Source: Craspedostauros australis (taxonomy: Eukaryota; Bacillariophyta; Bacillariophyceae; Mastogloiales; Achnanthaceae). Taken from it: 64,000 bases of DNA. The position numbers were made by a program, and so were the translations under genes. The DNA is taken from contig JAMXDE010000006.1 in assembly GCA_026770025.1 (NCBI GenBank), positions 868,001 to 932,000 on the forward strand. The letters are read 5' to 3'. Positions 35,660 through 52,876 of the stretch are shown here, piece by piece. The notes beneath the pieces were generated by a model that did not search any database, had not been told where the DNA came from, and saw nothing but the letters and a program-made list of their open reading frames with translations. Position 1 is the stretch's first letter; each line of letters begins with the position of its first letter.

Positions 35660-37804
35660 ATGAGGACGATTAGCATGAGCATGAGCAGAGCCCTATTCGG
35701 CGCCGTTGTCGTGCTTGCATCGCTACCATCCACGCTGGTCGGCGTCCAGGGCAGCGTCCAGGGCAGCACAACCAACAATGAACGCGATCTGGCCATTCTG
35801 GACATCTACAAGCCAAGGATCGTGCCTCCATGGCTGTGCGGTCTGCAATCGGAGACGTCCATCTGCAGGAACATGGATGCGATTGTCATGGACCAGCGCC
35901 ACGTGGCCTCGAAGGCCTCCGAATGGGGCGTGCTGGTGCTCATGCTGCAGTTCCAGGACCACGGCGACCGTCCCCTGGTGCACCCGCAGGACATTGAGGA
36001 TCTGTTCAATGCCAGGTTCGAGGAGGACCTGGGCTCCCGCACGCCCACAGGCTTGGATTTGGACGGAAACAACGGAAACAACGACACTGTGACAGTGGAA
36101 CAGCAGCAAGACGGGGACGGCAGCAGCAGCAATGTGTGGAAGACGCCGGTGGCGTCCGTCAACACGTACTTCCAGGCCAACTCCTTCGGCAAGTTCGACA
36201 CCAAGGCCACCATCATCCCATGGACGATCGTCAATCGCACGGCCGCCAGCTGCCTCGGTTCCAACGCCTTGGTGCTCGAATGCCTGCACCCCATCCTCGA
36301 AGACTTGGACGCTCGCCACGCCGACACGAACCAGCTCTTCGATTGGCGTCACGTCGACCAGAATCGCGATGGCGTCATCGACTCCCTCGTTCTGTTGCAC
36401 AGCGAGTACCACTCGCCCTCCGTGGCGGACGTCACGAGCCAAGTCGGCGACGCCCATGCCGCACCGTACACGGCCTCCGTGCCGGAACTGGGCCAGTGGA
36501 AATCAAACGTCTTCGACATGCAGGTGGCGACCTACAGCTCCATGTCGGCCTTCGCGGCCATCCACGATCCCGCCGTCATGGCGCAGGCGCAGCAACTGGA
36601 TGGCAACGTCTATCGCGCGCCGACGATTCACCTGCGCACCATCCTCATAGAGCTCATGCATTCCATCGGATTCCCGTCCCTCATCCCGTCCAATCCGCGC
36701 GAAGAGGGCCATGGAACGGGGATGTACTCCCTGCTGTCGTTGCCACCGCCCATCACAGAAGTGCCCAACACGCAGACGACCAGCATGCTAGATCCCTGGT
36801 CGCGCTATCAGCTGGGATGGATCCAGCCCATCCAAATCAAGGGCAACGGCAAGTTCGACAGCGAACCGTCCAGCGTCAGCGCCAACACGTCCGTCTACAT
36901 CCTCTCCAAGTCCTATCCGGAGAACGAATACCTCCTCATCGAGAACAGGGACACGCTCCTGTTCGACGCGCACCTGCCCACGCCTGGTATCCTCATCTGG
37001 CACATCGACGATCGCATTCGTGGCAACTACCGCGCCGGCGGCCCGTACCAGGACGGATGGCCGCAGAACAACAGGCATTATCAAGTGCGCGTCCTGCAGG
37101 CCGATGCGCAGTACAACTTGGAACAAGGCAACAATTTCGGGGACATCGGCGACTACTACCGAACGGGCAGCGCGACGTTGGGACCCTCCACGGGCGGACG
37201 ACGGCTTTCGTCGCATCATCTTCGCAATAATATCTTCAATCAAACAGGACCCATCTACCCAAACACGGACTCGCATCAAGGCGGCGTCGTCGTTGCCACG
37301 GGCATCGCCATTGGCAACTTCACGACGGACGATACCACGAAATCATTCCAAGTCACAGGTTTCAGCACGGACCACGACAGCGTAGGCGTCGATCTGAGGG
37401 GCGAGGTGCTCAAACAGTACTCCAACAAATGCTTGGTCCAAGTCAATGTCAAGTACTGCGACGATCTCATGGATATCTTTGTCGATTCGCGGCGGCATCT
37501 TGAACAGTCGGACGATGGTTGCGAATGCTATCAGTGGTGCGCCGAAACGGGCGAGGCCACATGCTGTCCCTACGGCACGGCCTGCAACATCAACTGTCCG
37601 CGGGGACGATTCGTTGCGGGATGCGTCATTCCGACCAAGAAACAAGACGACGACGACAAGCACACGGAGGTGGAGCCGCCCAAGTACGAACCCGTCTCGG
37701 ATGATGTGACGGATCCAACGCAACCACCAACGTCCGGTGCTGCGGGCATGCTGTATCGCTGCGGTGTGGCAATCGTGTGCGTCATTCCTTTCCTTTGGAT
37801 ATGA
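35660..37804 (+). CDS. Secreted M6-like metalloprotease homologue lacking the first zinc His
   Basis: A single-exon protein of 714 residues. It has a signal peptide (FGAVVVLASLPSTLVGVQG) and a C-terminal hydrophobic end (YRCGVAIVCVIPFLWI) that could be a membrane or GPI-type anchor. The middle follows the M6 (immune inhibitor A-like) peptidase fold: LVLMLQFQDHGDRP near the start, VNTYFQANSFGKFDTKATIIPW, FDWRHVDQNRDGVIDSLVLL, and GILIWHIDDRI later. The zinc site, normally HExxH, reads I330-E-L-M-H334 (LIELMHSIGFPS), so the first His is Ile and Zn-dependent proteolysis is doubtful. A Cys-rich module (about 600-655) precedes the tail. It may be a non-catalytic binding protein, or an enzyme using other ligands. 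The fold assignment is good; the activity is uncertain. Confidence 0.8.
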   Translation: MRTISMSMSRALFGAVVVLASLPSTLVGVQGSVQGSTTNNERDLAILDIYKPRIVPPWLCGLQSETSICRNMDAIVMDQRHVASKASEWGVLVLMLQFQDHGDRPLVHPQDIEDLFNARFEEDLGSRTPTGLDLDGNNGNNDTVTVEQQQDGDGSSSNVWKTPVASVNTYFQANSFGKFDTKATIIPWTIVNRTAASCLGSNALVLECLHPILEDLDARHADTNQLFDWRHVDQNRDGVIDSLVLLHSEYHSPSVADVTSQVGDAHAAPYTASVPELGQWKSNVFDMQVATYSSMSAFAAIHDPAVMAQAQQLDGNVYRAPTIHLRTILIELMHSIGFPSLIPSNPREEGHGTGMYSLLSLPPPITEVPNTQTTSMLDPWSRYQLGWIQPIQIKGNGKFDSEPSSVSANTSVYILSKSYPENEYLLIENRDTLLFDAHLPTPGILIWHIDDRIRGNYRAGGPYQDGWPQNNRHYQVRVLQADAQYNLEQGNNFGDIGDYYRTGSATLGPSTGGRRLSSHHLRNNIFNQTGPIYPNTDSHQGGVVVATGIAIGNFTTDDTTKSFQVTGFSTDHDSVGVDLRGEVLKQYSNKCLVQVNVKYCDDLMDIFVDSRRHLEQSDDGCECYQWCAETGEATCCPYGTACNINCPRGRFVAGCVIPTKKQDDDDKHTEVEPPKYEPVSDDVTDPTQPPTSGAAGMLYRCGVAIVCVIPFLWI

Positions 37805-37978: not shown

Positions 37979-40900
37979 CTATTCACACTCCTGCAAATAC
38001 CGTTGCTTGTCTTGTGCCGCCATTTCCTCGAACTTTTGCTTGTCTTCATCAGAAATGGACTTCCATTGTCGCCCGAGCTCCTTGGAGATGTCGCCGAGCT
38101 TCGTCAAGGTCTTGGCAACCTCAGGCCTTCTTTCACCACAAAAGAAGATGTACGCAGATCTGGGTCGTTTGGGTTGGTTGGAAGATGCGCTGCTCCGTGC
38201 CTTCGATTTGGACTTGGACGCCGTCTTCTTCTTCTTCTTCTTCTTCGTCGTCGTCGTCTTCTTGGGTTTAGCACCGGTCTCCTGATTGCATTCCTCCTCC
38301 CATTGCTTCTTCTTCACCTCGTACTCTTCCTTCGACTGCTGCGCCAGTCCATCAAACGCTGCTCGGTCCGCTTCAGAGATCTTTGACCACTGCCGGGCAA
38401 GCTCCTTCGAGGCCTCTCCAAGCGAGCTTGTGGATTTGGCAACTTCCGATCGTCTGGCCGCACAAAAGTGTAGATAGGCCGACAGTGGACGTTTTGGTGC
38501 CTTTGGCAAGTCCGCGCCCGCCGACGATGACACGCCCCTCGTCTTCCTGCCCTCCTTGGCAGATCTGGTTTTGGGGTTTGCCGCCTTCTTCTCGATGAGA
38601 GCCCACGCGGTGTCCAGAGGTAGGTCGGATGGGTCCTCCATGTACTCGGCAGGCAGTTTGGCATTCACCTCCCTCCAGTTGATGTAGGAGCCAAAACGAC
38701 CTCGTTTGACGGTCACCATGGAACCATCCTTCTCGCCCACCTCTACCAGTACGCCTCGTGCAGTTTCTAATGTACGAGTAGAGCGGAGAAGCAAGCATCG
38801 AAGCGAAGGTGAGTTCTCGAACATTGTATTGTACAGCCATCCCTGGCATCGACAACAGTCGCCTGCATACCACACTCGCACAGTAGAGTCATTCGACACA
38901 GACAGTCACACATGTTAGTATAACCCAAGCTCACAACACATGAAGCAAGTCATTGAATCGATCCCGACACAAACTAATTCAGCGAAACTCACTCGGACTG
39001 TTGATGATGCGTTCCGTGACGATGGCTTCAGCTTCTTCGGCATCAATCCAAATGACATCAGGGTCGTTCTTCTTCAGGTTCGCGTAGGTACCGTCGTACC
39101 TCAAGTACGGACCGTAGGGACCGATCGAACCGACGATGGGCTTTCCATGCAACGTGCTGATCGTCTTGGGAAGCTCCAGGTACTTGATTGCCTCCTCGAA
39201 CGTGAGGCCGATCAGATCCGACAAGGATTGATCCGATTCAGAAACCATACTCGCATCGATGTTTCGCATTGAACCAATGCTGCGGGGAAGGCTGTGAGTG
39301 GTTGTCTTCTCCTCTCCGTCTTCACCCCACTGGAGGTACGAACCGTAGCGTCCCACCTTGATGAACACTGGACGGCCATCCTCGGGGTGTTCACCGACGA
39401 TCTCACCGCTCGATTCCTTCGACTTGAGGATCCTTTCCAGCATGGGTTGAGTGATGGAAGAGATGTCGGCAGCCAGTCCGGGAGGCAAGCTTGCGGATAC
39501 TGCTTGCTGCGAAGTACTCGCAGTCTCCGCGCCATCGTTATCATCATTCTGTGAAGTGTCGTCCACCTTTTTCACGTACGGTCCCCACGGACCGATGAAT
39601 AAGCCCACATTGTTGGCCGCGTCACCGGTCAACGAAGGGAGCTGGGCTCTGCGCGCGACATCAGGCTCGACCTCCTTGTCGATCCTGTCGATCTGAGCTG
39701 CCAGGCCGCTGTCGCCTTTGTAGAAGTTATCGAGATACTTGATCCGTTCTGCTTCGGCCACATCCGTGTTTGCGATGTGATCCAGCTGCTCCTCCATGCG
39801 TGCCGTGAAGTCAGAATCGACGAACATGGGACAGTGATCCTCCAGCAAAGAGCACACGACGAAGGCAGAGAGTGAGGGGACCATGGGACCTCGTGCACCG
39901 GCAGATCCGGTGAAGTCGTCACCACCGGCTGCACGCTGGGCGACAATGTCCATGCCCGAAACCTGCTTCTTGGTACCGCGGATGGAATCTTGATTGGCGG
40001 CGATGGGACTTCCGACGTAGGCTCTGTCACGCAGCGTCTTCACGATGTTCGCGTACGTGCTGGGCCTTCCTACGCCGAGGAGCTCCAATTCACGGACGAA
40101 GCTGGCTTCAGTGTACCGCGCGGGAGGTTGCGTCACATGATCTGTGCAGGAAATAGACTTGCATTGCAGCGGTTGGCCTTCAGTGACGGATGGCAGTTCC
40201 ATTCTCTCTTTGTCAGCATTCGACGCGTACACCGTCGTGTATCCGGGATCTAGCACAACGCTTCCTGTGGTTCTGAACTGCACATCTGTGTTGCCGTCGG
40301 TGCCTTCGATTGTCACGGTGGTCTGATTGGAGATCTGCGGCGGCATGCACGATGCCACAGTTCGTCGGAAGATCATCTCGTAGACCTTCACCTCCATAGG
40401 ACCGACTTTGGATGGAAGATCAAGCGGAAGTAAGAACTTGCCATCGGGCTGGATGGCAGGGCGGATTGCCTCGTGGGCCGCTTGCGGGTCTACTTCTTTC
40501 GGTTTCTCGCTGCCGTCATCTTTTGTCGATGACCTCTTCATCTTCTTGGTTGATTTCTTTGCCTTCGACGGGTCCTTGGGCTGGAAGTTTGCCTTGCCTC
40601 CGTAGTTGGTCACGATGCAATCTAGCACGGCAGCCACCGTGTCGTTGGAGAGATGGTCGGAGTCGGTTCTCATGTAGCTGATGTATCCATTCTCGTAAAG
40701 TTTCTGCGCGCACTGCATGGTCTGGCTCACTGACAGAGCCAATCGCCTGTTCGCCTCCTGTTGTATGGTCGACGTAATGAATGCAGTGGGCGACTGTGTT
40801 TTGCGTTTCGTGGACTTAATCTCGCCGATCTGCCAGCTCCAATCATCAGGCGAAGCTTCGATTCGTTTCGTCAACTCCGTTGCCTCGGATTCCATGAGGT

Positions 40901-42218
40901 GATGCTTCTTGCGTCCAGCCCGCGTCAGCTTGTTTGATTCGTTGGGTTCGAAGTCGGCAGTGCCAGAGACGAGCTTGATTCCATCGATGGCAACAAGATC
41001 AGCGTCAAAGCCTTTGTCATGATGGACGAGCTCCAGACTAGCGAATGTCCCATTCAAGCTCCAGTACTCCGATGGCTGGAACCGCAGTCGCTGTCGCTCG
41101 CGTTCCACGATCAATGCCATTCCTACAGATTGGACCCGACCAGCCGACAATCCCGGGGCGATCTTCTTCCACAGAACAGGGGATACCGTGAATCCAGCAA
41201 GCCGATCCAGCACGCGCCTCGTTTCCTGAGCCTGTACAAGGCCGTCCCTCAACGAGTCGGACGGATTCTGGATGGCCTCGACGATCGCTTTTGCAGTGAT
41301 CTCGGTGAATCGAATACGAATGGCTGGCAGTTGGTCCCCTCCGACGCCATTCTTCTTTTTCTTTTTGGTGTTCGTTGACTTTCCATTCTGCAGACACTCG
41401 AGCAGATGCCATGCCATGGCCTCGCCTTCGCGATCATCATCCGTCGCAAGGACCAGCTGCTGAGCTTTATCTGCCCAATCCTTGAGTTCCTCGAGCAGTC
41501 GGATCTTGCCTGGCATGGTGATGTACTCGGCCTCGTACCTGTCGCCTTCCAGATCGATCCCAGGTATGAGTTGGTCCTTGGATGTCTTCTGTTTTGGCAG
41601 ATCGCGAATGTGGCCCATGCAGGATGTGACGACGAAATCATAGTCGAGGTCATTTTCCTTGACATGCTTCTGCAGAATCTTGGAGATCGTGGAGCACTTG
41701 CTGGGCGATTCAACGATGACGAGCTTGAACGGTCGTTTGGATGTATCAGTCGGGCCGAACACGGACAGCGACTGTTGCTTGGCGAATTTCGGCGCTGACG
41801 ATGTTGACGGTGCTGGCGCTGGTGGTGCTGTTGTTGCGGAGTACAGCCGGAATGTGCTCAGACGCAGCGGCCTTGGCTGTGGCACGCCAAGAAAACAGCG
41901 ACCGTGATGACATCGACGAAGATGATGGCTGTGGAGCAGGTGATCGTGTTGGATCATTCCAACGGGATTGCATGCAGGTTGGAACACTTGCGGCGTGGCG
42001 GAAACAGCACGCCGGCGAGTAATGGTAGAACGAGCGATGTCTGAGTTGAGAGACATTGATGCTCTTGCAGATCGTTGAACACGGCCATTTGTGGCAAAAC
42101 CCGAGATGAATGAGTGGGTCACGCGAAGCTGCAGCAAAGACACCATCATGCCGAGCATCAAGATCCTCGCAGACATTCCTGCTGCCATTGTCACTGTGGA
42201 TGCTGCAGTCGTTGCCAT
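37979..42218 (-). CDS. Bacterial-type DNA topoisomerase I fused to two HMG boxes, probably plastid-targeted
   Basis: Exons 42,218-38,993 and 38,766-37,979 join (CCGA|GTGAGT ... CATTAG|AA) to 1,337 residues. The Toprim domain starts at about 164 (KLVIVESPSK, Glu170) and has DDDREGE at 260-266 for Mg2+. The active-site Tyr is 515 in ISYMRTDS. This is the type IA architecture of bacterial TopA, which relaxes negative supercoils by nicking one strand. C-terminal topoisomerase repeats follow (GPWGPYVK, GRYGSYLQWG, GPYGPYLRYDG, GRFGSYINW). Exon 2 then adds two HMG boxes: about 1,164-1,235 (KAPKRPLSAYLHFC) and 1,268-1,337 (NQPKRPRSAYIFFC), joined by a Lys-rich linker. The leader (SLLQLRVTHSFISGF, then Arg/Ser-rich) suggests organelle, probably plastid, targeting. 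It likely acts on plastid DNA topology. Confidence 0.9.
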
Positions 42219-42814
42219 CCCCTCACTGCCACTTCCAGTATTGAGAGTATACTACTCTAGTTGGTATCCTGGATGATGATGGGGCAGGGTACCGCTGATG
42301 GTTGGTTTGTAACTCGAGTACTTGTGTAGTATGGTAGTGTGGAATAGTAGGTAGGATACACCGAAGTGATAGCGACACGGAGAGTGATTACACGAGCGCA
42401 GCTCTTCACGGAACAAAATGATTTTTTGTCAACTGTCTGAACATTTGTGGTGGGAGATGTGTTTGACGTTTGCGATCCACTCGTGTCTCAACTAAGGAGG
42501 TATGACTGGAAGAGAATGAGACAGGTCACGGACGAACAAGTACTGATCTAGCCTCCTCTTGACATGCCCTGAAACCAGATTGAATTACACATCTGGATTC
42601 TGACACCAAGACGGATCCTGACGTGTTGCAGTGGCGAGGATTGCAAGCAGAGAGAAAGGATGCAAACAACAGAAACATCGCATCACTCTCACAACAGCAG
42701 CATCCATCACATCGAGCATCAAGCAAGCGCGCGGTTTCGTGGTTGATCATCGAAAACCCGTCCTTCCTTGCTGTGAAAATTTTCCTTTCCCCTCCGCCCG
42801 TCTCTCTTCCCGCC
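42219..42814. promoter_or_regulatory. Topoisomerase promoter and leader of DIRS-like element
   Basis: This lies between the topoisomerase start (minus) and the first ORF of the retroelement (plus). The exact left end of the element is not visible: I found no terminal repeat shared with the 50.4-51.0 kb side. ORF1 is open upstream to 42,623, but without an ATG. Confidence 0.4.
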
Positions 42815-45127
42815 ATGCCGGTCTTCGATTTCGGGTCCGTTCGCTCTGCCTCTCGCTCGTCTCCTTCGGGTGGTGGCGGTGGCTCTGCGGCCCCCACTGG
42901 TGCCCCTTTGGGTGCTCCTGCTGGTGGGTTGTTTCCGCCTTCTGCGGTGGCGTCTGTTACTGGGGGGGTTGGTGATGGCGATGCGGTGGTGTTGTTGTTG
43001 TGGGTCGAATCTGTGGGGTCCATCTGTGGTGGTATCATTGGGGGCTCAGAGGAGAAGGGCGCTGTGCGCTTCTGCACTCGCTCTCTCTGTCCAACGAAGA
43101 GCCATGTCGGGAACAAGGCTCCCCTGCGCGATGGGAGCTTCTACGTCCGCACCATCAAGGCCGACCAGGCACGATTGGCGCCCTCCATCGACGCGTCATG
43201 GTTGCCTGTGTCCATGACCAAGGAGGACCTGCTGTCTGAGCTCAAGGCTCCAGCAGTGTGGCGTGCCTTTCTCCGCGACCTTGCCACCTCACGCCTCCGT
43301 GTCGAGGCTGGCGAGGATGTACCGATCGTCTCAGTTGACGATTTCGCGGCTGTTGAGGACTTGGCATCCCCTCGCCGCCTCGCTCTCCGCATCAGCCCAC
43401 GCGCAGACGAGGTCTCCTCCATCAAGCTGCAAGAGCTGGACATCGTGGCACCTCTGCCAGACGAGTACCGAGTCTCAGACGACACTGACCCTGCCATCAC
43501 TGGCGCCGTCGTTCTGATTGAGAACTGGGAACAGGTCCGCTCCAACTTCGCGCAGCTGGAGAAGATTGTTGCTGGCATCGAGAAAGGACAGGGCGCCGTT
43601 CGCAACGCGGTTGCGGATGACATCAGCGCCGTCATGGTCAGCCTACAGCGTCTGCACACTCAAGATCAGCTCCTCAGCGCTCGCATGGGCGAGGGAGCCA
43701 GTGCTGACGAGACGCTCAGTGAGCAAATCCTCGGCATCCGATCTGCGGTGGAGATGACCCACCAGAAGGTGCTCGACTTTGAGCGCTCTGGTGCGGCCAG
43801 ATTCGCGCGTGAGTGGGCCACCCAGCTTCCCACTCTGCGCTCATCGCTTGACGAGCTCTTCACTCATTACAGCAACTCGGTCAATGCCATCGTTGGTCGC
43901 CTGGATTCCCTGGAGTCCAAGCCATCCTTTTTGCCGGAGCGGTCCTCTCCTTCTCGTGGAGTCTCCTTTTCTCCCGTCGCTTCCACCGCATCCATCGCAA
44001 CCATGGTGGATGATGCCGTCGAGCGCCGCTTCCGCACATTCGAGCGCGACATGGAGGCCAGGCTTTCTGCTTCCCGCTCGGTCCCAGGCATCTCCGCACC
44101 CAGCGGTGTTGGAACTGACCTTGCCGAGCGGCTGAACGAAGCAGAGTGTCGCGTGGAGCAAGCCCTTCGACTCCAATCCGACCATGCCTTCTCGACCGAC
44201 AGCGACACCTTCGCATCGCTTGAGGACGTTCGCGCCTGGATGGACTCCAACAATGTCAAGTCAGTGGGATTGTTCTGGGATATGTTCTCCTTGCTCGTGT
44301 CCATGAACTCCAAGGCCAACAAGAGCGGCAAGGATCGCGCCGATGAGGGCTACTCTGCCAGTCGCATTGCTGCCACTGTTGCTGAGATTGACCTCGCCGC
44401 GTCCATGGGCCACATCCGTCCCGTCGCTCTCTTTGCAAAGAACGGTCGTGGAGAGCTCTCGCCACCTGAAGAAGGCCTGGCCGCTGCTCCCAGCTGGAAC
44501 AAATGGGCCAATGGCATGTCATCCTACCGTGGCATCGTCTCCTCGTCCTACCGTGGGTACCTACAAGGCATCAACGGAAAGGTCCCGTCCTGTGGCAACC
44601 CTGCCCAGGCGGCCCTTGCTCGCTACCTTAGTAGGCGCGCTGAGATCCATTGGCATGGGCTCACCTCATTCATGCAGACCTTCTACCATGACCTCGTGTC
44701 GGCATCCAACTTTCAGGCCGCCTCGGCTTGGAACTTGGTCGGCCGATGCGTCTGCTCCGTCTTTGACGAGCTACATCTGGTCCGATCTGACTCCAGTTTG
44801 GTCGCTGGCGAGATGGCGAGCCTCGACAACAAGGCCAAGGTCCTGTGGTCCGTTCTCCGCTGTCATCGCATCATGGACTCGCTCCTGGAGGTCGAATTCC
44901 ATGGGCATCCTGCCCTTGCTCGGGCGCTGTCCATGTACCAGCTCTCTGAGCGTGTCGACAGGTCCGAGATGGAGAAGCTGCGCGATGAGCTCAAGCTTGT
45001 CAAGTTGCTGGCACAGGATGCCATGGACGAGGCTGAGCGCAGCGGCAAGAAGGCTGCTGAGGCCAAGCGGGCTGGTGCCAATGCGAAGAACGAGCTCAAC
45101 CAACAGAAGAAGAAGAACAGTAACTGA
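42815..45127 (+). CDS. DIRS-like ORF1, putative Gag-like protein
   Basis: The ATG at 42,815 (MPVFDFGSVRSAS) is the only in-frame Met before the body and gives 770 residues. A Ser/Gly/Pro-rich N-terminus is followed by long helical, charged segments (for example IENWEQVRSNFAQLEKIVAGIEKGQG) and a Lys/Ala-rich C-terminal coiled coil (DEAERSGKKAAEAKRAGANAKNELN). No zinc knuckle is present. Its place ahead of the RT frame argues for a structural, nucleic-acid-packaging protein, as in other DIRS elements, but there is no direct domain evidence. Confidence 0.75.
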   Translation: MPVFDFGSVRSASRSSPSGGGGGSAAPTGAPLGAPAGGLFPPSAVASVTGGVGDGDAVVLLLWVESVGSICGGIIGGSEEKGAVRFCTRSLCPTKSHVGNKAPLRDGSFYVRTIKADQARLAPSIDASWLPVSMTKEDLLSELKAPAVWRAFLRDLATSRLRVEAGEDVPIVSVDDFAAVEDLASPRRLALRISPRADEVSSIKLQELDIVAPLPDEYRVSDDTDPAITGAVVLIENWEQVRSNFAQLEKIVAGIEKGQGAVRNAVADDISAVMVSLQRLHTQDQLLSARMGEGASADETLSEQILGIRSAVEMTHQKVLDFERSGAARFAREWATQLPTLRSSLDELFTHYSNSVNAIVGRLDSLESKPSFLPERSSPSRGVSFSPVASTASIATMVDDAVERRFRTFERDMEARLSASRSVPGISAPSGVGTDLAERLNEAECRVEQALRLQSDHAFSTDSDTFASLEDVRAWMDSNNVKSVGLFWDMFSLLVSMNSKANKSGKDRADEGYSASRIAATVAEIDLAASMGHIRPVALFAKNGRGELSPPEEGLAAAPSWNKWANGMSSYRGIVSSSYRGYLQGINGKVPSCGNPAQAALARYLSRRAEIHWHGLTSFMQTFYHDLVSASNFQAASAWNLVGRCVCSVFDELHLVRSDSSLVAGEMASLDNKAKVLWSVLRCHRIMDSLLEVEFHGHPALARALSMYQLSERVDRSEMEKLRDELKLVKLLAQDAMDEAERSGKKAAEAKRAGANAKNELNQQKKKNSN

Positions 45128-45154
45128 GACGCGGCTCCTGAGTCGGCTGTTGCA

Positions 45155-48100
45155 ATGGATGGTGTGGATTCCAGACCATCCTTGCACGGCGTGACTCGGG
45201 GCACAGTTGGGCGCAGGTTGCAGCAGACTGATTGCTGTGCGGGCGTCGTTGCTTCGCGATGCCCGGCTTGGGTGTTCGATCTTGACTCGCTGGGGCTGTC
45301 TGTCGGTTTCATCGCCGGCTGGTCTGGCTCTGACGAGGATGGCGCGATCATCCGGCAGCTGCTCCCATTGGTGGTGCTGCAACCAGCAGCACCCTCTGTG
45401 GCGCAGCTCAACAGCGTTAATCTGCTACTAGCCGAGCATTCCATCACCAAATCCCTCTTCTCTGCTGTTGATGCCAGTTCTCTCGTTGTGGTTGCTTCAT
45501 CGCATCGCTCTCGCTGGCTTCCACCTGGTTGGTCGGCAAGGTCTTGGCGCGTGGAGCACTCACAGGTCGGTGGCGTCACCGATGCCGTAGGCTCTCCGAC
45601 TATCTTCTGGCGATGCCCTTCGCCTCCACAAGGCCCCCTACAGATTCATTCGGTTCCTCGCACTCTGCACTCGGTGCTGGACGACAAGCAATCGTCTCAG
45701 CACTGGCATCCTCCTCCTCCACCCAACCTCAATGTTGGACCTCTTCGCGTCATCCGCGTGGACGCCGTGAAGGTGTATGGTAAACCTGTGCTGCATCCTG
45801 GTGGTCTCATCCCGATCGGTTGCCTTCGGTCGGAGTTTGTGCTGGCGCCTTCCGTGTTCGGTCGTGGCAAGTGGTGCGCTCGCCCGCTTCGGTCGTTCGA
45901 GCGTCTTCGTGCGCTCGACTTCCCTGATACGGTTGCTCTCACCCTTCCTTCTGCTTCTGCTTCTGCGCTCCCAGGCAAATTGTTCTTCTCTGTTTTGTCC
46001 CAACTTTGCACATTCAACGAGGGGGGTACTTTTCTTTTCGATTCTTCTTCCTTTGCGACTGGCTGCCGTCCTGTCAGTTCGCCTCCATCTTCCGCCGGTC
46101 GCGGCTTGAGTCCGTCTGCAGCGGTATTCATTCCTGGATCCGCTGCAGCGGCATCTACCGCTCACCGTGTTACTACCAACTCTATGTTGCTACCATCTTC
46201 TGGCGATTCCATGCCTCTCACTTCATCGCTCCACACCATCAGCTCCGTCTCTCCTCCTGCCTCGTCACTTACCAACGACAACTCGTCTTGTACTCCTGAT
46301 TCCACAGATTCATCAGCAGCCAGTCACCCTCCCATCAAGACATGGGTGGCTCCATCAGAACTTCAGCGCAGCGTGCTGGAGGAGGCAGAATGGAACCGGC
46401 GCGCTCAGAAGGCTACTAAGTCCGACGACGCATCCATTCCCACTCACCTCTGGATGGATCAGCTGGTCAAGGGTTCTGTAAATCAATGGGATACGGCGGA
46501 TATGCAGAACCTGGAAGCCGGATGCAATGGCCTGAGGAGATGGATGTTGGGATGGTGGAGTCGACGTGTCACCACCTCCTTCTGGAGATGGTACTGTCGG
46601 CATCACCCCTCCCTGCGTCGTGTCACCACCAAGGTTGTTGCTGTTTCAACTGATGGCATCTACCGATGGAACCGGAAAGGCAGGGCAAGGTATGCAGCAT
46701 GGCGAAGACAGAGGCGACAGGCCTCACCCGATATATTCGATGCTGCTTGCGATGCAATCGCTCGAGTGTGTCGCTCCACTTGGTGGAATTGGGACGACGG
46801 ATCTCGCCCTCTGTTCTGGAGGTGGGCCAAGGAATATCAGACTATCATTCAAGAGGGTCTGCCGGTACACTTTCAATCGTCGCCGCCAAGCTACACTCAA
46901 CCGCAACGCAACGCCAATGATCCTCACATCCGAGACATGATGGCAGCCAAGCTGTGCAAGGTCCGACAAAAGCGATACATCATCCCAGGCACTGTTCACT
47001 CTCTCACTTCGTTCTTCGGGGTACCCAAGGGAGAGACCGACATCCGCATGGTGTATGATGCAACTGCAAGTGGCCTCAACGACGCTGTCTGGGTGCCTGG
47101 GTTCCCACTCCCGACTCTGGACACTCACCTACGAGCTGTGGGCACCAACACCTTCATGGCTGACAACGACATTGGAGAGATGTTCCTTAATTTCATGCTT
47201 CATCCATGCCTGAAGCGGGTCTGCGGTGTCGACATCACACACTATCTGACTGAAGAGGACCCCAAGGCTGGTAACAAGCTTGTTTGGGAGCGATGGGACC
47301 GGGCAGCAATGGGCTTAAAGTCTTCGCCTTATCAAGCTGTCCAAGCCATGCTCTTCGCCGAAGAAGCTATCCTGGGGTCCCACACTGATCCGCTCAACGT
47401 GTTCCAATGGAGCCAAGTCCGGCTGAACCTCCCTGGATCGGTGAATTACAATCCATCTCTTCCTTGGGTTTCGAAACTGGACACCAATGGCAACATTGCA
47501 GCAGATGCCTTCATCTACGTGGACGATGTCCGTCCTACTGGAGGCTCACAAGACATCTGCTGGCGAGCTACCAAGCGAGTGGGACACATGCTGGCCTACC
47601 TCGGTATTCAGGACGCGGCCAGAAAGCGTCGAGCTGCTACCAGGACCCCTGGTCCTTGGACTGGGGCAGTGGTGGTGGCACATGACTCAGGTGTGTACGC
47701 CACGGCAACACAAGAAAAATGGGACAAGGGCCGCGATCAGGTGGCCTCTGTCCTGGTAGATCTTGTGAAGAGTGACACCATCGAGCGAAAGAAGCTGGAA
47801 CGCATACGAGGATTCTTGAACTACCTTTGTCAGACCTACAAGCCAATGACACCCTACCTGATCGGATTCCATCTCACCATAGATGGATGGAGAGAAGGAA
47901 GGGATGCAGACGGCTGGAGAATCCTCAACTACATCAACCAGACAACATCAACACATGTCGAAACAGGTGATGCCACTCCTCCACCTGAGTACGTCAAGCC
48001 TGCTCCGCGTCTTGCTTCCGACCTTGAGGCTCTTCATCAGTTCTTCGCACCACCAGAGCCACCACTTCGTCTTATGCGGCCTGGTCATTCCATTCGAGCC

Positions 48101-49048
48101 TGGTACGGTTTTGCAGATGCATCACAAGCCGGATTTGGCGCTTCCCTTCAGGTCGGCAATGACATTGCCTTCCAGTACGGCGAATGGACCTCAGAAGAAA
48201 ATGAAACCAGCACATCAAACTGGCGTGAGCTCAAGAACTTGGTCGAAGCCTTGAAAGAATGGACTGCCAAGTTCAAGCTGGAAGGGAGCGAGGTGTTCCT
48301 CTTCACGGATAACTCCACAGCTGAGAGTGCGTTTTGGAAGGGAAATTCAACTTCCAAACGCTTGGCGGACCTGGTGCTCGAGATGAGACTGCTTGAAATG
48401 AGGTCAAACATGATCTTGCACGTCATACATGTCAGTGGAGATCGGATGATACTTCAAGGCACAGACGGATTGTCTCGGGCCGATCACAGCACCGGCGTTA
48501 TGGCTGGACAGAGCATGCTGCAACACATCCCTCTCCACTTGCAGCCATCAGATCGAAGAGGCAATCATCTCAAGGACACCATGAGAACATGTATGGAGGG
48601 AATCGAATACGAATGGCTCACCCCTGAAGGATGGTACAGTACAGGTCAACGGCGAGGCAATTTTGTATGGGAATCTGCTCCTGCAGCTGCGGATGCGATG
48701 ATCGATCAGATTGGCAAAGCTCGGCACAAGCGACCCCAGAACCTGCACGTGGTCTGCATACCCAGATTGATGACTGGTCGGTGGCGGAGGAAGCTGTTGC
48801 GGTTGAGTGACTTCTACTTCAAGGTTGAACGGTGTCATGAATGGCCTGCTCACCTGCTGGAGCCTTTGTTTGTCTTCATTTGTCTTCCTTATCTCTCTTG
48901 GAACCCCAGACTCGACGAACAACGCAAGCTATTGGAAGAACCAAATGAGGTTCTGCTGCAGCGAGGTGTGTGGGAAGCTGATCCAATCAGGTGCAGGCGT
49001 GTTCTGCGCGAACTTCTCCAGTCCGCGCGGGCCCTTTGCCCCCTGTAG
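45155..49048 (+). CDS. DIRS-like ORF2: reverse transcriptase and RNase H
   Basis: 1,297 residues. The first 470 or so are Ser/Pro-rich and unrecognised. The RT domain begins near residue 590. Its first motif is FGVPKGETDIRMVYDATASGLND (about 618-640), followed by FMADNDIGEMFLNF and the catalytic FIYVDDVRPTG (about 785-795). RNase H follows from about 985 with GFADASQAGFGAS, NWRELKNL, FTDNSTAESAF and GTDGLSR, which together supply the acidic residues of the active site. This RT type is recurrent in diatom and dinoflagellate genomes beside recombinase ORFs. The frame is intact. The last 70 residues overlap the start of ORF3 in another frame. Confidence 0.92.
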   Translation: MDGVDSRPSLHGVTRGTVGRRLQQTDCCAGVVASRCPAWVFDLDSLGLSVGFIAGWSGSDEDGAIIRQLLPLVVLQPAAPSVAQLNSVNLLLAEHSITKSLFSAVDASSLVVVASSHRSRWLPPGWSARSWRVEHSQVGGVTDAVGSPTIFWRCPSPPQGPLQIHSVPRTLHSVLDDKQSSQHWHPPPPPNLNVGPLRVIRVDAVKVYGKPVLHPGGLIPIGCLRSEFVLAPSVFGRGKWCARPLRSFERLRALDFPDTVALTLPSASASALPGKLFFSVLSQLCTFNEGGTFLFDSSSFATGCRPVSSPPSSAGRGLSPSAAVFIPGSAAAASTAHRVTTNSMLLPSSGDSMPLTSSLHTISSVSPPASSLTNDNSSCTPDSTDSSAASHPPIKTWVAPSELQRSVLEEAEWNRRAQKATKSDDASIPTHLWMDQLVKGSVNQWDTADMQNLEAGCNGLRRWMLGWWSRRVTTSFWRWYCRHHPSLRRVTTKVVAVSTDGIYRWNRKGRARYAAWRRQRRQASPDIFDAACDAIARVCRSTWWNWDDGSRPLFWRWAKEYQTIIQEGLPVHFQSSPPSYTQPQRNANDPHIRDMMAAKLCKVRQKRYIIPGTVHSLTSFFGVPKGETDIRMVYDATASGLNDAVWVPGFPLPTLDTHLRAVGTNTFMADNDIGEMFLNFMLHPCLKRVCGVDITHYLTEEDPKAGNKLVWERWDRAAMGLKSSPYQAVQAMLFAEEAILGSHTDPLNVFQWSQVRLNLPGSVNYNPSLPWVSKLDTNGNIAADAFIYVDDVRPTGGSQDICWRATKRVGHMLAYLGIQDAARKRRAATRTPGPWTGAVVVAHDSGVYATATQEKWDKGRDQVASVLVDLVKSDTIERKKLERIRGFLNYLCQTYKPMTPYLIGFHLTIDGWREGRDADGWRILNYINQTTSTHVETGDATPPPEYVKPAPRLASDLEALHQFFAPPEPPLRLMRPGHSIRAWYGFADASQAGFGASLQVGNDIAFQYGEWTSEENETSTSNWRELKNLVEALKEWTAKFKLEGSEVFLFTDNSTAESAFWKGNSTSKRLADLVLEMRLLEMRSNMILHVIHVSGDRMILQGTDGLSRADHSTGVMAGQSMLQHIPLHLQPSDRRGNHLKDTMRTCMEGIEYEWLTPEGWYSTGQRRGNFVWESAPAAADAMIDQIGKARHKRPQNLHVVCIPRLMTGRWRRKLLRLSDFYFKVERCHEWPAHLLEPLFVFICLPYLSWNPRLDEQRKLLEEPNEVLLQRGVWEADPIRCRRVLRELLQSARALCPL

Positions 49049-50408
49049 GTCAGCTTGGTGCGGCTCGTGCTATGGCGAGATTGGAGACAAGAACTTTCCT
49101 GTCCAAACTGCCAACGACGATGACGGTATCGATCTCACTCCGGATATCGACAAGACTCGCTTCCGAATAGCCCGAAACGGTGACCATCTTATGGTGCCGT
49201 TTCAGTGCGATCGCTGTCACTTCCGCAATATCATGCTCCGCGAGCCACTCAACCACAGACAACAGGATCGAGAGATGCTTGTCTACATTCGACGAGCCAA
49301 CCTCGACGCCTTTTGGAGCAGAGAACCATCCACTGTCGCGGCAAATCTTCGCGAAGCCCGACGCATGGAAGCTTTTGCGGATCGGTTGAACATCCCATCC
49401 ATCAGCGCTCCCATGGGTCCCTTCCCGCTTCAAGACTCGTGTGGCATGGCTGGAGCAATGGCAGTACTCGACAGGTCCTTGGATACAGGTCGCTATGCGA
49501 CCAATGTTCAATGGGAGACCTTTCGACGCACCAGGTCGGCCATCACCAATATTCACCAAGCGGGGGTTGCTGGACTTGGGGAGTCTGTCATGGCATACGA
49601 GAGGTCCCGCATGTGGATGTCAAGTGTGCCGTCGCATCAGTTCTGGTTCACTCGATTCATGGAAGGTACCCACAGGAGAGTGGGGCAGATCCGCAAGCCA
49701 GCTCGTGCCTACACCATTGACGAGATCCATGGGCTGGAAGCTCTGTTGGAGCACGAGTGGAGAATGGACAACGATCACTCCCGGCGCAAGAGAACCGCAG
49801 AAGTGGCTATGCTTACAATTGTGGCCTTCTGCACCGGGCTGAGGGGAGAGGAGATGCTACAAATCGACCTTCTTGCTACCTCTTCGAGTCTCAAGCATCT
49901 TCAAGATACGAAGCTTCCGCACGCACGGCTCGCCATCATCGGTCGCACCAAAGGCAACAGGCATGACGGAGCACGATTCGACGTTCCATGTGTGAAGACA
50001 ACTTCAGGCACCGGATTACAACCCGGTAAATGGATCAAGCGAATGGTGCGACAAGTCGAAGGTGCGGGACTTCGTAATGGCAAGCTTTTGACAAGGAAAC
50101 TGAATCCGCCGAGGCTCCTGGAGTTTCGGGACGACGTATATGTGGCGCTGGAGGCCTTGCAGGCCCAAGGCATAATCGATACAGAGGTGGATATCCGAGA
50201 CAAATACGGTCTTGACCGTTCAGCTCGCAGAGGGTCCACTTCTCACGCGATCAACATGCGTGTTCCAAGAGATATCATCATGGCAAACAACAGATGGCGA
50301 ACCGAAGCCAACTCAGTCTCGGGAAACCCAAGACTGGACATGGTGGACACCTACTCAGCACTGGAGTCACTGCTTCCTGCTGTATTGGAGTACTCGAAGC
50401 AGATGTGA
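48837..50408 (+). CDS. DIRS-like ORF3: tyrosine recombinase
   Basis: 523 residues from the ATG at 48,837 (the frame is open further up, but from GTG). The C-terminal half has a tyrosine-recombinase catalytic core. Box I Arg is in FCTGLRGEEM (about 337). The box II region is SARRGSTSHA (about 463), then NNRWRTE (about 483), and the likely nucleophile Tyr is in VDTYSAL (about 504). The first His of the usual HxxR is not present: the equivalent position reads Arg (RSARRG). It would insert the circular cDNA into the genome. The N-terminal half is less conserved. It overlaps the end of ORF2 by 212 bases, so its expression needs reinitiation, splicing or a separate transcript. Confidence 0.85.
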   Translation: MNGLLTCWSLCLSSFVFLISLGTPDSTNNASYWKNQMRFCCSEVCGKLIQSGAGVFCANFSSPRGPFAPCRSAWCGSCYGEIGDKNFPVQTANDDDGIDLTPDIDKTRFRIARNGDHLMVPFQCDRCHFRNIMLREPLNHRQQDREMLVYIRRANLDAFWSREPSTVAANLREARRMEAFADRLNIPSISAPMGPFPLQDSCGMAGAMAVLDRSLDTGRYATNVQWETFRRTRSAITNIHQAGVAGLGESVMAYERSRMWMSSVPSHQFWFTRFMEGTHRRVGQIRKPARAYTIDEIHGLEALLEHEWRMDNDHSRRKRTAEVAMLTIVAFCTGLRGEEMLQIDLLATSSSLKHLQDTKLPHARLAIIGRTKGNRHDGARFDVPCVKTTSGTGLQPGKWIKRMVRQVEGAGLRNGKLLTRKLNPPRLLEFRDDVYVALEALQAQGIIDTEVDIRDKYGLDRSARRGSTSHAINMRVPRDIIMANNRWRTEANSVSGNPRLDMVDTYSALESLLPAVLEYSKQM

Positions 50409-52876
50409 TCCATCTGCGGGGACGACGAGGGGGGAGAGAACGGCTCCATTGTGCCAGCACACACACTGCCACACTGGAGCTGATTCAAGCTAGGTGCCAT
50501 CATCTTCGCTCACCCAATATTGACCAGAAAAGGACAACCATGGGAACTTGACGCTGTCGTTCCAAATGGCTAATCCAGGAAAATATATGGGCACGTATCT
50601 GGAATCGAACTACATGTTCTTCCATGCGTTGCGAAGCTCTGCCTGCCACCAATGGCGTGAGGACTCGGTCGACTGATTGTCGGCCGGTCCACAACTACCC
50701 CCCACGTTAGCACTTCAATACAGTAGAGTAATAAGTATACTCCTACGTATTGACGTACCACCGTGTGACAATGTGAAGGAAGCTGCACAGGTCGCAATGA
50801 ACACACAGGATGACCGAGGTGGTCGGTGGAGGTGGCCACATTAGCCTATCATTTCATGAGATGAGCCCATTCAGGATACGATAGTAGAATCGTGCCGATT
50901 CTGAAGAGAAGTGGCTAAATCATCCTATTATGTTGCAGATACTATATTAGTGAAGTTACAAGCTCCAGGGTCTTGCAGTTAAAAAGTTTATATTTCTCGC
51001 ACCAGGCTACGACTAGTGGCTATTGGCTAATTTCCGGTTTTTTGGCACTTATTGGTAATTATTGGTAACCATTGGCATATCGCCGACGGCACAAGCAACC
51101 ATTCGATGAGTTGATGGCCGTTGCCTGACATCTTTGCATCATTAGGAAGAGGAGAGTGAGAGCTCTCTGTTGATGTCTTCATTGTCTGCAAACGGTCTCC
51201 GCTTCATGTTCATCTCGATGCCTCTTTTTACCCTTGATCGGCCTTTTTCATACGGACGACATACGGACGTGGTTTCAGATTTTTTCGTTGGTAACCATTG
51301 GTAACCACGTAGAGTCTACGACGTTCTGGTACAGAAATTTGTTGCTTTGTCGTCCAACCTCGACCAACCGTCTTCCAAAGACCCGCATCCAATTCTGTTT
51401 TGTCTATTGCTCAAGTGGATGGCATGGTTGAATTCGTCGCTTCATTCTGCTTCGGGTGATGTGTTGGTCAAAGGTCCAGAGTGCTTTTGTGTGTTGTGTT
51501 GGGTGTTTAAAGTTAGTCACTAATGCTCGTGACAGCCATGATCATCAATCCGTGAACGCACAAAAGTTCGCGCCAAAAATTATCGTGCTTTTTACGTGTT
51601 GTTGAGTCGGACTGTGCTGTTCACCTGAGTCTGGCTACTTTATGCGAGGTTGTGCCTTGCCCTGATGTCGGATCATCGTGTCGTTGCTTTCAATAGACGC
51701 AGTATCCTCTCCTTAACCTGCCCATGTAGCCTTGGTCTTCGAACCTAACTTCCTCCAAAGATATACCAACTGCAAGTTGTGTTCTTCGCTTTGTCACGTG
51801 GTATCCTTGCAAGGAAACATCGCTTCCTGATCAGGCCCCACAACTGTCTCCATTGACGCCAGTTGCTACACCCTCCCAAAGACTAACCACGCATCTCATG
51901 CTCATGCGATGGGTGAAGTCGTTGACGCAGTCGCTGTTCATGCCCCATCAAACCACGTTCGAACCGTTCTGTGGAGGAAGCCTCATGTTCTTTACTGATC
52001 TCCAGTGCAACTATGGCCAATCGAACACTGGCCTCTACATTGCACACGCAATAAATGCTAAAATGCGCGCACATTGCGTGGAAATTATGCGCGGCGCAGT
52101 TGCACATGCTCAGCGATGTGGAGGATCCAATGAAGAGCGGTCAGAGCATGGCGAGATTCGACTCCTCAGTGCGAAACAGTCGACTCTGCTCTATTCTAGA
52201 CTGCTCTTGTGTGCTGCTGATATCCAAGGGATCATTGCTCCCCCAAGCAGGATGGATACAATGATGCACATACATCCAAGTTGCTTTTGCCAAGACGGTT
52301 GCTGGTGCACTGTATTCCGGAGTAGAGCTGAAACGCTATTGCAGAACTTATCAACCATATCAGCAACCGCAATGTTGTACGATGAACGAAGCCACAATGG
52401 ATGATACCAGGATGTAAGGAACTGATCATAGCATGTGAGGAACGCACCGGTTGGCACCACATTGTTTTGTGATCATTTCAACCATGTGTTAACACGCGCT
52501 GAGGCACACAGAAATTCGCCACGATACATCGCGGTGATTGGCATTCGTGAATGGCAACGACGAGTGGCGGCTCCAGAGAAACGAACAGATCTCGACAACG
52601 ACCCATTCAATCACCACCAAAGTTGGAGAGGGTGATGAAATGCCACACATGAGAGTTCTCACGAAAGGAGAGCTCAAACAAACGGAGCGGCTTGGACTTG
52701 CCGAGGAGGTTTGTGTCAAAATTGGTGGTTTTTGGGCCGGTTCGCGTGGGACTGACGTACAAAATGTACCAGCGTCTACGTCAAAATTGACTCATACGAC
52801 TAGTTACCAATCGTTACAAATGGTTACCAAAACATTTGGCCTCCACTCAAGCCAAAAGACACCAGAGTAAAGTATT
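50409..52876. other. 2.5 kb gene-poor region with GGTAACCA-type repeats
   Basis: This is the right flank of the DIRS-like element, up to the LON-like gene's stop. It is AT-rich and has no supported gene. TTGGTAACCATTGG-like strings occur near 51,055 and twice near 51,290. Inverted forms (AGTTACCAATCG, ATGGTTACCAAAA) lie near 52,803-52,830, suggesting the remnants of a separate mobile element with degenerate inverted ends. An open frame at 51,853-52,404 lacks an ATG at its start and any domain. Confidence 0.4.

Follow-up and report, generated by a model that had tools for sequence, protein, structure and literature searches.

A gene in Craspedostauros australis joining a bacterial-type topoisomerase I to two HMG boxes, with a predicted plastid leader

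Can a DNA topoisomerase of bacterial type and two DNA-bending boxes of eukaryotic type be carried on one protein chain, and where in the cell would such a protein act? This question was raised by a gene in a stretch of 64,000 nucleotides of Craspedostauros australis (contig JAMXDE010000006.1, positions 868,001 to 932,000; hereafter the window, in whose numbering positions are given). The gene lies on the minus strand, and its exon 1 (42218-38993) and exon 2 (38766-37979) are spliced to a coding sequence of 1337 amino acids with a single terminal stop (Table 1). In the preliminary description, a full type IA core with Toprim, Tyr515 in SYMRTDS and C-terminal GxYG repeats was followed, after one intron and in the same frame, by a pair of HMG boxes that a Lys-rich linker connects. 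The coordinates, the frame and the splice sites given there were confirmed, and the Pfam matches, the TIGR01051 match and the motif positions agreed with the reading of the core. The fusion of TopA with the HMG boxes (TopA-HMG) is robust at the sequence level.

The evidence for the fusion came mainly from exon 2. Pfam, run on this exon alone, reported HMG_box (1.2e-27, two stretches) together with Toprim_C_rpt (4.5e-13) in one open frame. Because the last TopA repeat shares the exon 2 frame with both boxes, the fusion is independent of the intron. The only Met residues beyond residue 1070 were 1092 and 1118, both in the last repeat, and 1324 in box 2, with none between the last TopA repeat and box 2. 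Hence, an HMG-only protein starting at a Met would need part of the repeat to include box 1. Exon 2 as a separate HMG gene, the case that the preliminary description had named against itself, was rejected on these grounds, because exon 2 opens with the TopA repeat in frame. Moreover, the exon 2 DNA was single-copy in the 74.8 Mb genome, barring five short matches that fall on its Lys-coding part, and a codon score trained on exon 1 only was above 0 in seven of the eight exon 2 windows. A wrong gene model, in which exon 2 belongs to another gene or the join is an artefact of assembly or splicing, is thus very improbable. The point in its favour is that translation through a retained intron would yield a chain of 1079 residues that lacks the last repeat and the boxes, whereas the shared frame, the Met positions and the single copy of exon 2 speak against it. 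An isoform lacking the HMG boxes is conceivable because of the same early stop.

The exact exon join was not unique, since several in-frame GT-AG pairs were available. A 130-nt intron would use the same donor as the 226-nt intron together with the acceptor at 38863, and the fusion is identical with either acceptor. The extra 96 nt between the two acceptors scored -0.21 per codon, which is non-coding on a scale trained on the TopA-HMG gene itself (coding windows of the training gene at least 0.06; non-coding windows with a mean of -0.26 and a maximum of -0.04). The pyrimidine share of the tract was 76% ahead of acceptor 38767 versus 48% ahead of 38863. The sole branch-like TACTAAC was located 148 nt ahead of 38767 and 52 nt ahead of 38863, which counts against the 226-nt intron. 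The 226-nt intron was favoured because of the non-coding score and the better pyrimidine tract, and the acceptor at 38863 was set aside as less likely despite the nearer TACTAAC.

The topoisomerase part of the protein was evaluated with Pfam, which gave Topoisom_bac (2e-95), Toprim_C_rpt (2e-35, three stretches), HMG_box (5.5e-25, two stretches) and Toprim (9.2e-17) on the whole chain. Exon 1 exceeded the threshold of the NCBIfam profile TIGR01051 (topA_bact), with 521.4 bits against a cut-off of 456.4. The Toprim Glu, the DxD-type motif and the Tyr in YMRTDS, which we take to be the catalytic residues, occupied invariant columns in an alignment of five rows (the query and four TopAs, two each from phage and plasmid records). 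No zinc repeat was reported by Pfam on the TopA-HMG protein, and no SWIB domain was among its matches at E 0.01. The protein is a bacterial-type topoisomerase I (type IA, TopA) with an intact catalytic core as judged from its motifs, and relaxation activity is predicted. An insert of about 40 residues behind the last core motif was missing in loci L018-L020 (L021 was too short to tell) and in all 10 loci readable over that stretch among the 13 examined. In three genomes of the cyanobacterial phylum (G030:C64, G036:C136, G044:C33), the TIGR01051 match was interrupted at profile position ~508-514; as this is the position of the break in the query too, an insert may occur at the same site in these genomes.

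The affinity of the core was explored within the genome and among bacterial and viral loci. PF01131 gave six matches at three loci of the assembly, namely the TopA-HMG gene, C4 near 577 kb and C7 near 1392 kb. The best PDB matches of the two other loci were TOP3-alpha and TOP3-beta; hence, no bacterial-type TopA other than TopA-HMG was found in the assembly. Over 180 loci, the top bit scores were 469 for the cyanobacterial phylum (n=32, median 421), 444 for other bacteria (n=70, median 398), 351 for alphaproteobacteria (n=20, median 322) and 320 for viral contigs (n=58, median 223). A quick tree without bootstrap was built from 62 rows, of which the 61 bacterial and phage rows were hand-picked from the loci on hand, and the query took no resolved place within the half of the tree without alphaproteobacteria. 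When the query was constrained to group with 14 longer cyanobacterial rows, the likelihood rose 10.5 log units above that of the free quick tree; this grouping and one with alphaproteobacteria were the two compared in the approximately unbiased (AU) test. In the published tree, the red algal plastid TopA was of cyanobacterial origin, and the alphaproteobacterial type was reported for green plants (PMC3914683). The core of TopA-HMG appears nearest to cyanobacterial TopA, an assignment that is not firm and that would agree with, without proving, the origin reported for red algae.

The two boxes were then compared with each other and with known HMG proteins. PF00505 scored 96.5 bits on exon 2 in two stretches (cut-off 25.4). 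Box 1 and box 2 shared 32 identities over 59 alignment columns, and the alignment score was 175, whereas the highest score among 1000 shuffles was 51. The best solved-structure match of the HMG region was HMGB1, and TFAM was aligned across both boxes. In the HMGB1 alignment, Ile and Leu of box 2 were opposite Ala16 and Phe37 of box A, in what we take to be HMGB1 numbering, and box 1 had Leu and Leu at these wedge positions as read from its likeness to box 2. A16 and F37 of HMGB1 box A are its two intercalation sites, and the HMGB1 boxes, which show little specificity for sequence, underwind DNA and bend it (PMC4498601). A DNA-bending role of the boxes is plausible. The boxes may instead be a mere general DNA-binding tail, like the tails, basic or with zinc repeats, that other TopAs carry, with no bending or nucleoid role. 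This alternative is rather unlikely. It would fit with C-terminal tails of TopA that differ by lineage in the systems described (PMC9369019, PMC12445093, PMC7398561) and with a linker that by itself carries 12 Lys and a net charge of +13 in 29 residues (amino acids 1244-1272, approximate borders), but the apolar wedge residues and the PKRP, SAY and W residues are retained in both boxes and would be needless for a mere charge tail. Elsewhere in the genome, three tandem HMG boxes were observed in one open frame (L005-L007, G000:C43:490503-491306), the third of which came nearest to fusion box 2 when eight other boxes of the genome were compared with it.

The destination of the protein was explored according to its N-terminal leader. 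In these algae, a Phe or another aromatic residue at +1 after the cleavage site (ASAFAP-like) marks plastid import. The leader ...LLQLRVTHS/FISGF (the slash marks the putative cleavage site) fits, by eye, a signal peptide and then a transit peptide whose +1 residue is aromatic, and amino acids 37-160 comprised 26 S/T, 15 R/K and 3 D/E. The light-harvesting complex (LHC) proteins of the same genome read ...SAAAFAP at this point, and a GyrA-like gene (best match of PF00521) had the similar leader STVAFSPR. The nuclear assembly of 90 contigs contained 61 LHC matches and no match to psbA. Three of the four LHC loci read started with MKFTATLIAALAGSAAAFAP, a leader that we take to be of the fucoxanthin-protein type of diatoms, and the fourth was without a clear frame. 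These LHC leaders predict a photosynthetic ochrophyte host, and the TopA leader, being of the same kind as ochrophyte leaders, is likely to direct the protein to the plastid. The plastid leader proposed in the preliminary description is therefore kept as a prediction, to which the resemblance to the LHC and GyrA-like leaders was added. It is improbable that the enzyme acts in the mitochondria or the nucleus, with the HMG boxes serving mitochondrial DNA (as TFAM and Abf2 do) or chromatin. The Arabidopsis TopA is described as dual-targeted to the plastid and the mitochondrion (PMC3914683), and mitochondrial DNA is packed by HMG-box proteins, Abf2 in yeast and TFAM in mammals (PMC13108849). However, the signal-peptide-like stretch followed by HS/F is shared with the GyrA-like and LHC proteins of the same genome, and the red algal TopA was reported by green fluorescent protein (GFP) in the plastid only (PMC4166229).

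According to the reading that we prefer, and that we hold to be fairly probable, a single nuclear-encoded TopA would be targeted to the plastid, where the HMG boxes and the linker would tether it to bent or underwound plastid DNA and thereby shape nucleoid topology. The leader would take the protein to the plastid, and the boxes, being apolar at both intercalation positions, would recognise DNA that is bent or underwound, show little preference for its sequence, and introduce kinks. The substrate of type IA enzymes is underwound DNA able to open, because a single strand is required. By binding or creating such sites, the boxes may hold the enzyme on its substrate and raise its processivity, as may be compared with the histone-H1-like lysine repeats that raise the processivity of actinobacterial TopA (PMC7398561). 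The enzyme would relax free negative supercoils, opposite to the plastid gyrase, and spare those constrained by its own boxes. By sparing these supercoils, it may contribute to how the plastid nucleoid is packed and to its topology at rest. HMG boxes leave constrained supercoils in the supercoiling assay. The assay combines HMG boxes with topoisomerase I and a relaxed plasmid (PMC4498601). With both activities on one chain, constrained supercoils may follow from TopA-HMG. A wider reading, in which an ochrophyte class of TopA would be at once plastid relaxase and architectural nucleoid protein, is possible but leans towards doubtful; in it, the boxes would constrain supercoils on the DNA that their own active site relaxes, and one protein would set both packing and resting superhelicity.

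Several points weigh against the plastid nucleoid role and its supports. The fusion was seen in one species only. A single-sequence structure model of exon 2 was of low confidence (mean predicted local distance difference test score, pLDDT, 55.9; predicted template modelling score, pTM, 0.20), and the three-helix pattern occurred only in box 2 (helices 203-210, 213-236 and 239-260), with two long helices in box 1. Two exon 2 codon windows were weak, namely amino acids 1173-1204 in box 1 (-0.07, with 0.16 in another frame) and 1269-1300 in box 2 (0.02). In the tree, the query had a very long end branch (2.72) that was flagged as unsure by the tree program, seven short TopAs of the cyanobacterial phylum were in the other half beside the alphaproteobacteria, and the tree constrained to the query and eight alphaproteobacteria was 18.0 worse in likelihood than the free search but was not rejected (p-AU 0.148). 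The leader was judged by eye alone, and the authors of PMC3914683 allow dual localisation for some proteins found at a single location. Furthermore, the nuclear assembly contained four matches to HU-like (Bac_DNA_binding) genes at three places (G000:C6:482107-482992, G000:C5:190560-190796 and G000:C5:263699-263926). Since these genes are present, the plastid may have packing proteins of bacterial type, and the HMG boxes need not be its packer. The closest parallel, the chlamydial TopA-SWIB, is described as less processive than the E. coli TopA (PMC12445093). The tail effect on processivity may go in either direction, because the actinobacterial tail raises it and the chlamydial TopA is lower.

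The occurrence of the same fusion elsewhere was explored among relatives of the TopA core. An alignment query yielded the best 80 of 590 confirmed in genome contigs and 59 of 92 in viral contigs. No HMG box was found at E ≤10 in 2107 open reading frames (ORFs, at least 150 amino acids) from 187 TopA-relative loci of bacteria, phages and viral contigs, with a profile that was untried on an outside positive. The profile was made from ten own-genome boxes including both query boxes, and its match to the query is thus by construction. Exon 2 as a query gave 600 pattern matches in viral contigs, of which none was confirmed, and part of exon 1 as a single query gave 24 in genome contigs, again with none confirmed. 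Two IMG/VR matches (L149 and L153) at 43-44% identity were set aside, as their neighbour genes look bacterial or phage; over the N-terminal stretch concerned, identities of 45-46% were also seen in one viral contig and in other bacterial loci. No description of a TopA-HMG fusion was found in the titles and abstracts of the open-access papers listed, or of the best-ranked ones where matches were many, although annotation databases may contain such proteins unremarked. The passages on plastid enzymes, nucleoids and TopA tails that were consulted contained none, and "HMG" was absent from the main text of a survey covering the C-terminal domains of microbial type IA enzymes (PMC9369019). Relative to the bacteria and papers searched, the combination is new, and it is a TopA with a lineage-specific DNA-binding tail.

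Table 1. Features of the TopA-HMG gene in window coordinates (aa, amino acids; slash, putative cleavage site).
Feature	Coordinates	Strand	Basis or remark
Whole TopA-HMG gene, ATG to stop	37979..42218	-	spliced product 1337 aa
Leader, aa 1-160: hydrophobic signal-peptide-like stretch, VTHS/FISGF, basic Ser/Thr-rich acid-poor region	41739..42218	-	by eye
Toprim domain, aa 165-278; VESPSK (169), DDDREGE (260)	41385..41726	-	Pfam and motif positions
Type IA core (Topoisom_bac), aa 324-736; active-site Tyr515 at 40676-40674	40011..41249	-	Pfam, motif positions
Insert of ~40 aa behind last core motif, aa ~737-776	39891..40010	-	comparison with other loci
Exon 1 C-terminal region, GxxG-type repeats GPWGPY 876, GRYGSY 956, GPYGPY 1033	38994..39641	-	approximate borders
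Intron, 226 nt, GTGAGT...TTAG	38767..38992	-	competing acceptor 38863 likewise frame-preserving
Last TopA C-terminal repeat, aa 1088-1141, GRFGSY 1098; exon 2, in frame with HMG boxes	38570..38731	-	Pfam
HMG box 1, aa 1163-1233	38294..38506	-	Pfam, box comparison
Lys-rich linker between boxes, aa 1234-1270	38183..38293	-	spliced translation
HMG box 2, aa 1271-1335, 2 residues short of C-terminus	37988..38182	-	Pfam, box comparison

In the neighbourhood, three consecutive long ORFs of 834, 1297 and 533 amino acids were located upstream of the TopA gene on the plus strand (42623-50408). None of the three had a Pfam match, the 1297-residue ORF had no PDB match, and no repeats of at least 60 bases were found in 42200-51500. 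By eye, the 1297-residue ORF resembles what we take to be a DIRS-type polyprotein with reverse transcriptase and RNase H, unconfirmed by Pfam or PDB. On the other side, a 714-residue ORF without a Pfam match (35660-37804, plus strand) was convergent with the TopA gene, and the two stop codons were 174 bases apart.

To our knowledge, the organisation and supercoiling control of plastid DNA in the red lineage are poorly known. The fusion is of moderate interest, which would be greater if it were a conserved ochrophyte class. It would offer a single protein for probing the coupling of topology and packing, and, as a covalent union of a relaxase with DNA benders of eukaryotic type, it would be a case of host chromatin parts welded to an endosymbiont enzyme. 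Like HMGB1, TFAM and Abf2, TopA-HMG has two HMG boxes separated by a short linker; unlike it, these proteins have no attached enzyme, and TopA-HMG lacks the acidic tail that we take to be typical of HMGB1, as the chain ends two residues past box 2. Like the red algal plastid TopA (Cyanidioschyzon merolae CMI252C), it is nuclear-encoded and of bacterial type with cyanobacterial affinity, whereas no HMG box is mentioned for CMI252C in the passages that describe it, a comparison by description and not by sequence (PMC3914683). Actinobacterial TopA likewise has no zinc fingers, and the M. tuberculosis enzyme has Topo_C_Rpt motifs and lysine repeats (PMC12445093), which resemble histone H1 (PMC7398561). 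Unlike TopA-HMG, it is without folded HMG boxes, and none were found in the actinobacterial loci scanned. The chlamydial TopA has SWIB rather than HMG and zinc-finger repeats rather than Topo_C_Rpt, and it is bacterial rather than plastid, but it is likewise a bacterial-type TopA with a C-terminal domain of eukaryotic chromatin type (PMC12445093). The welding of chromatin parts in TopA-HMG would parallel both this TopA-SWIB and the actinobacterial lysine repeats.

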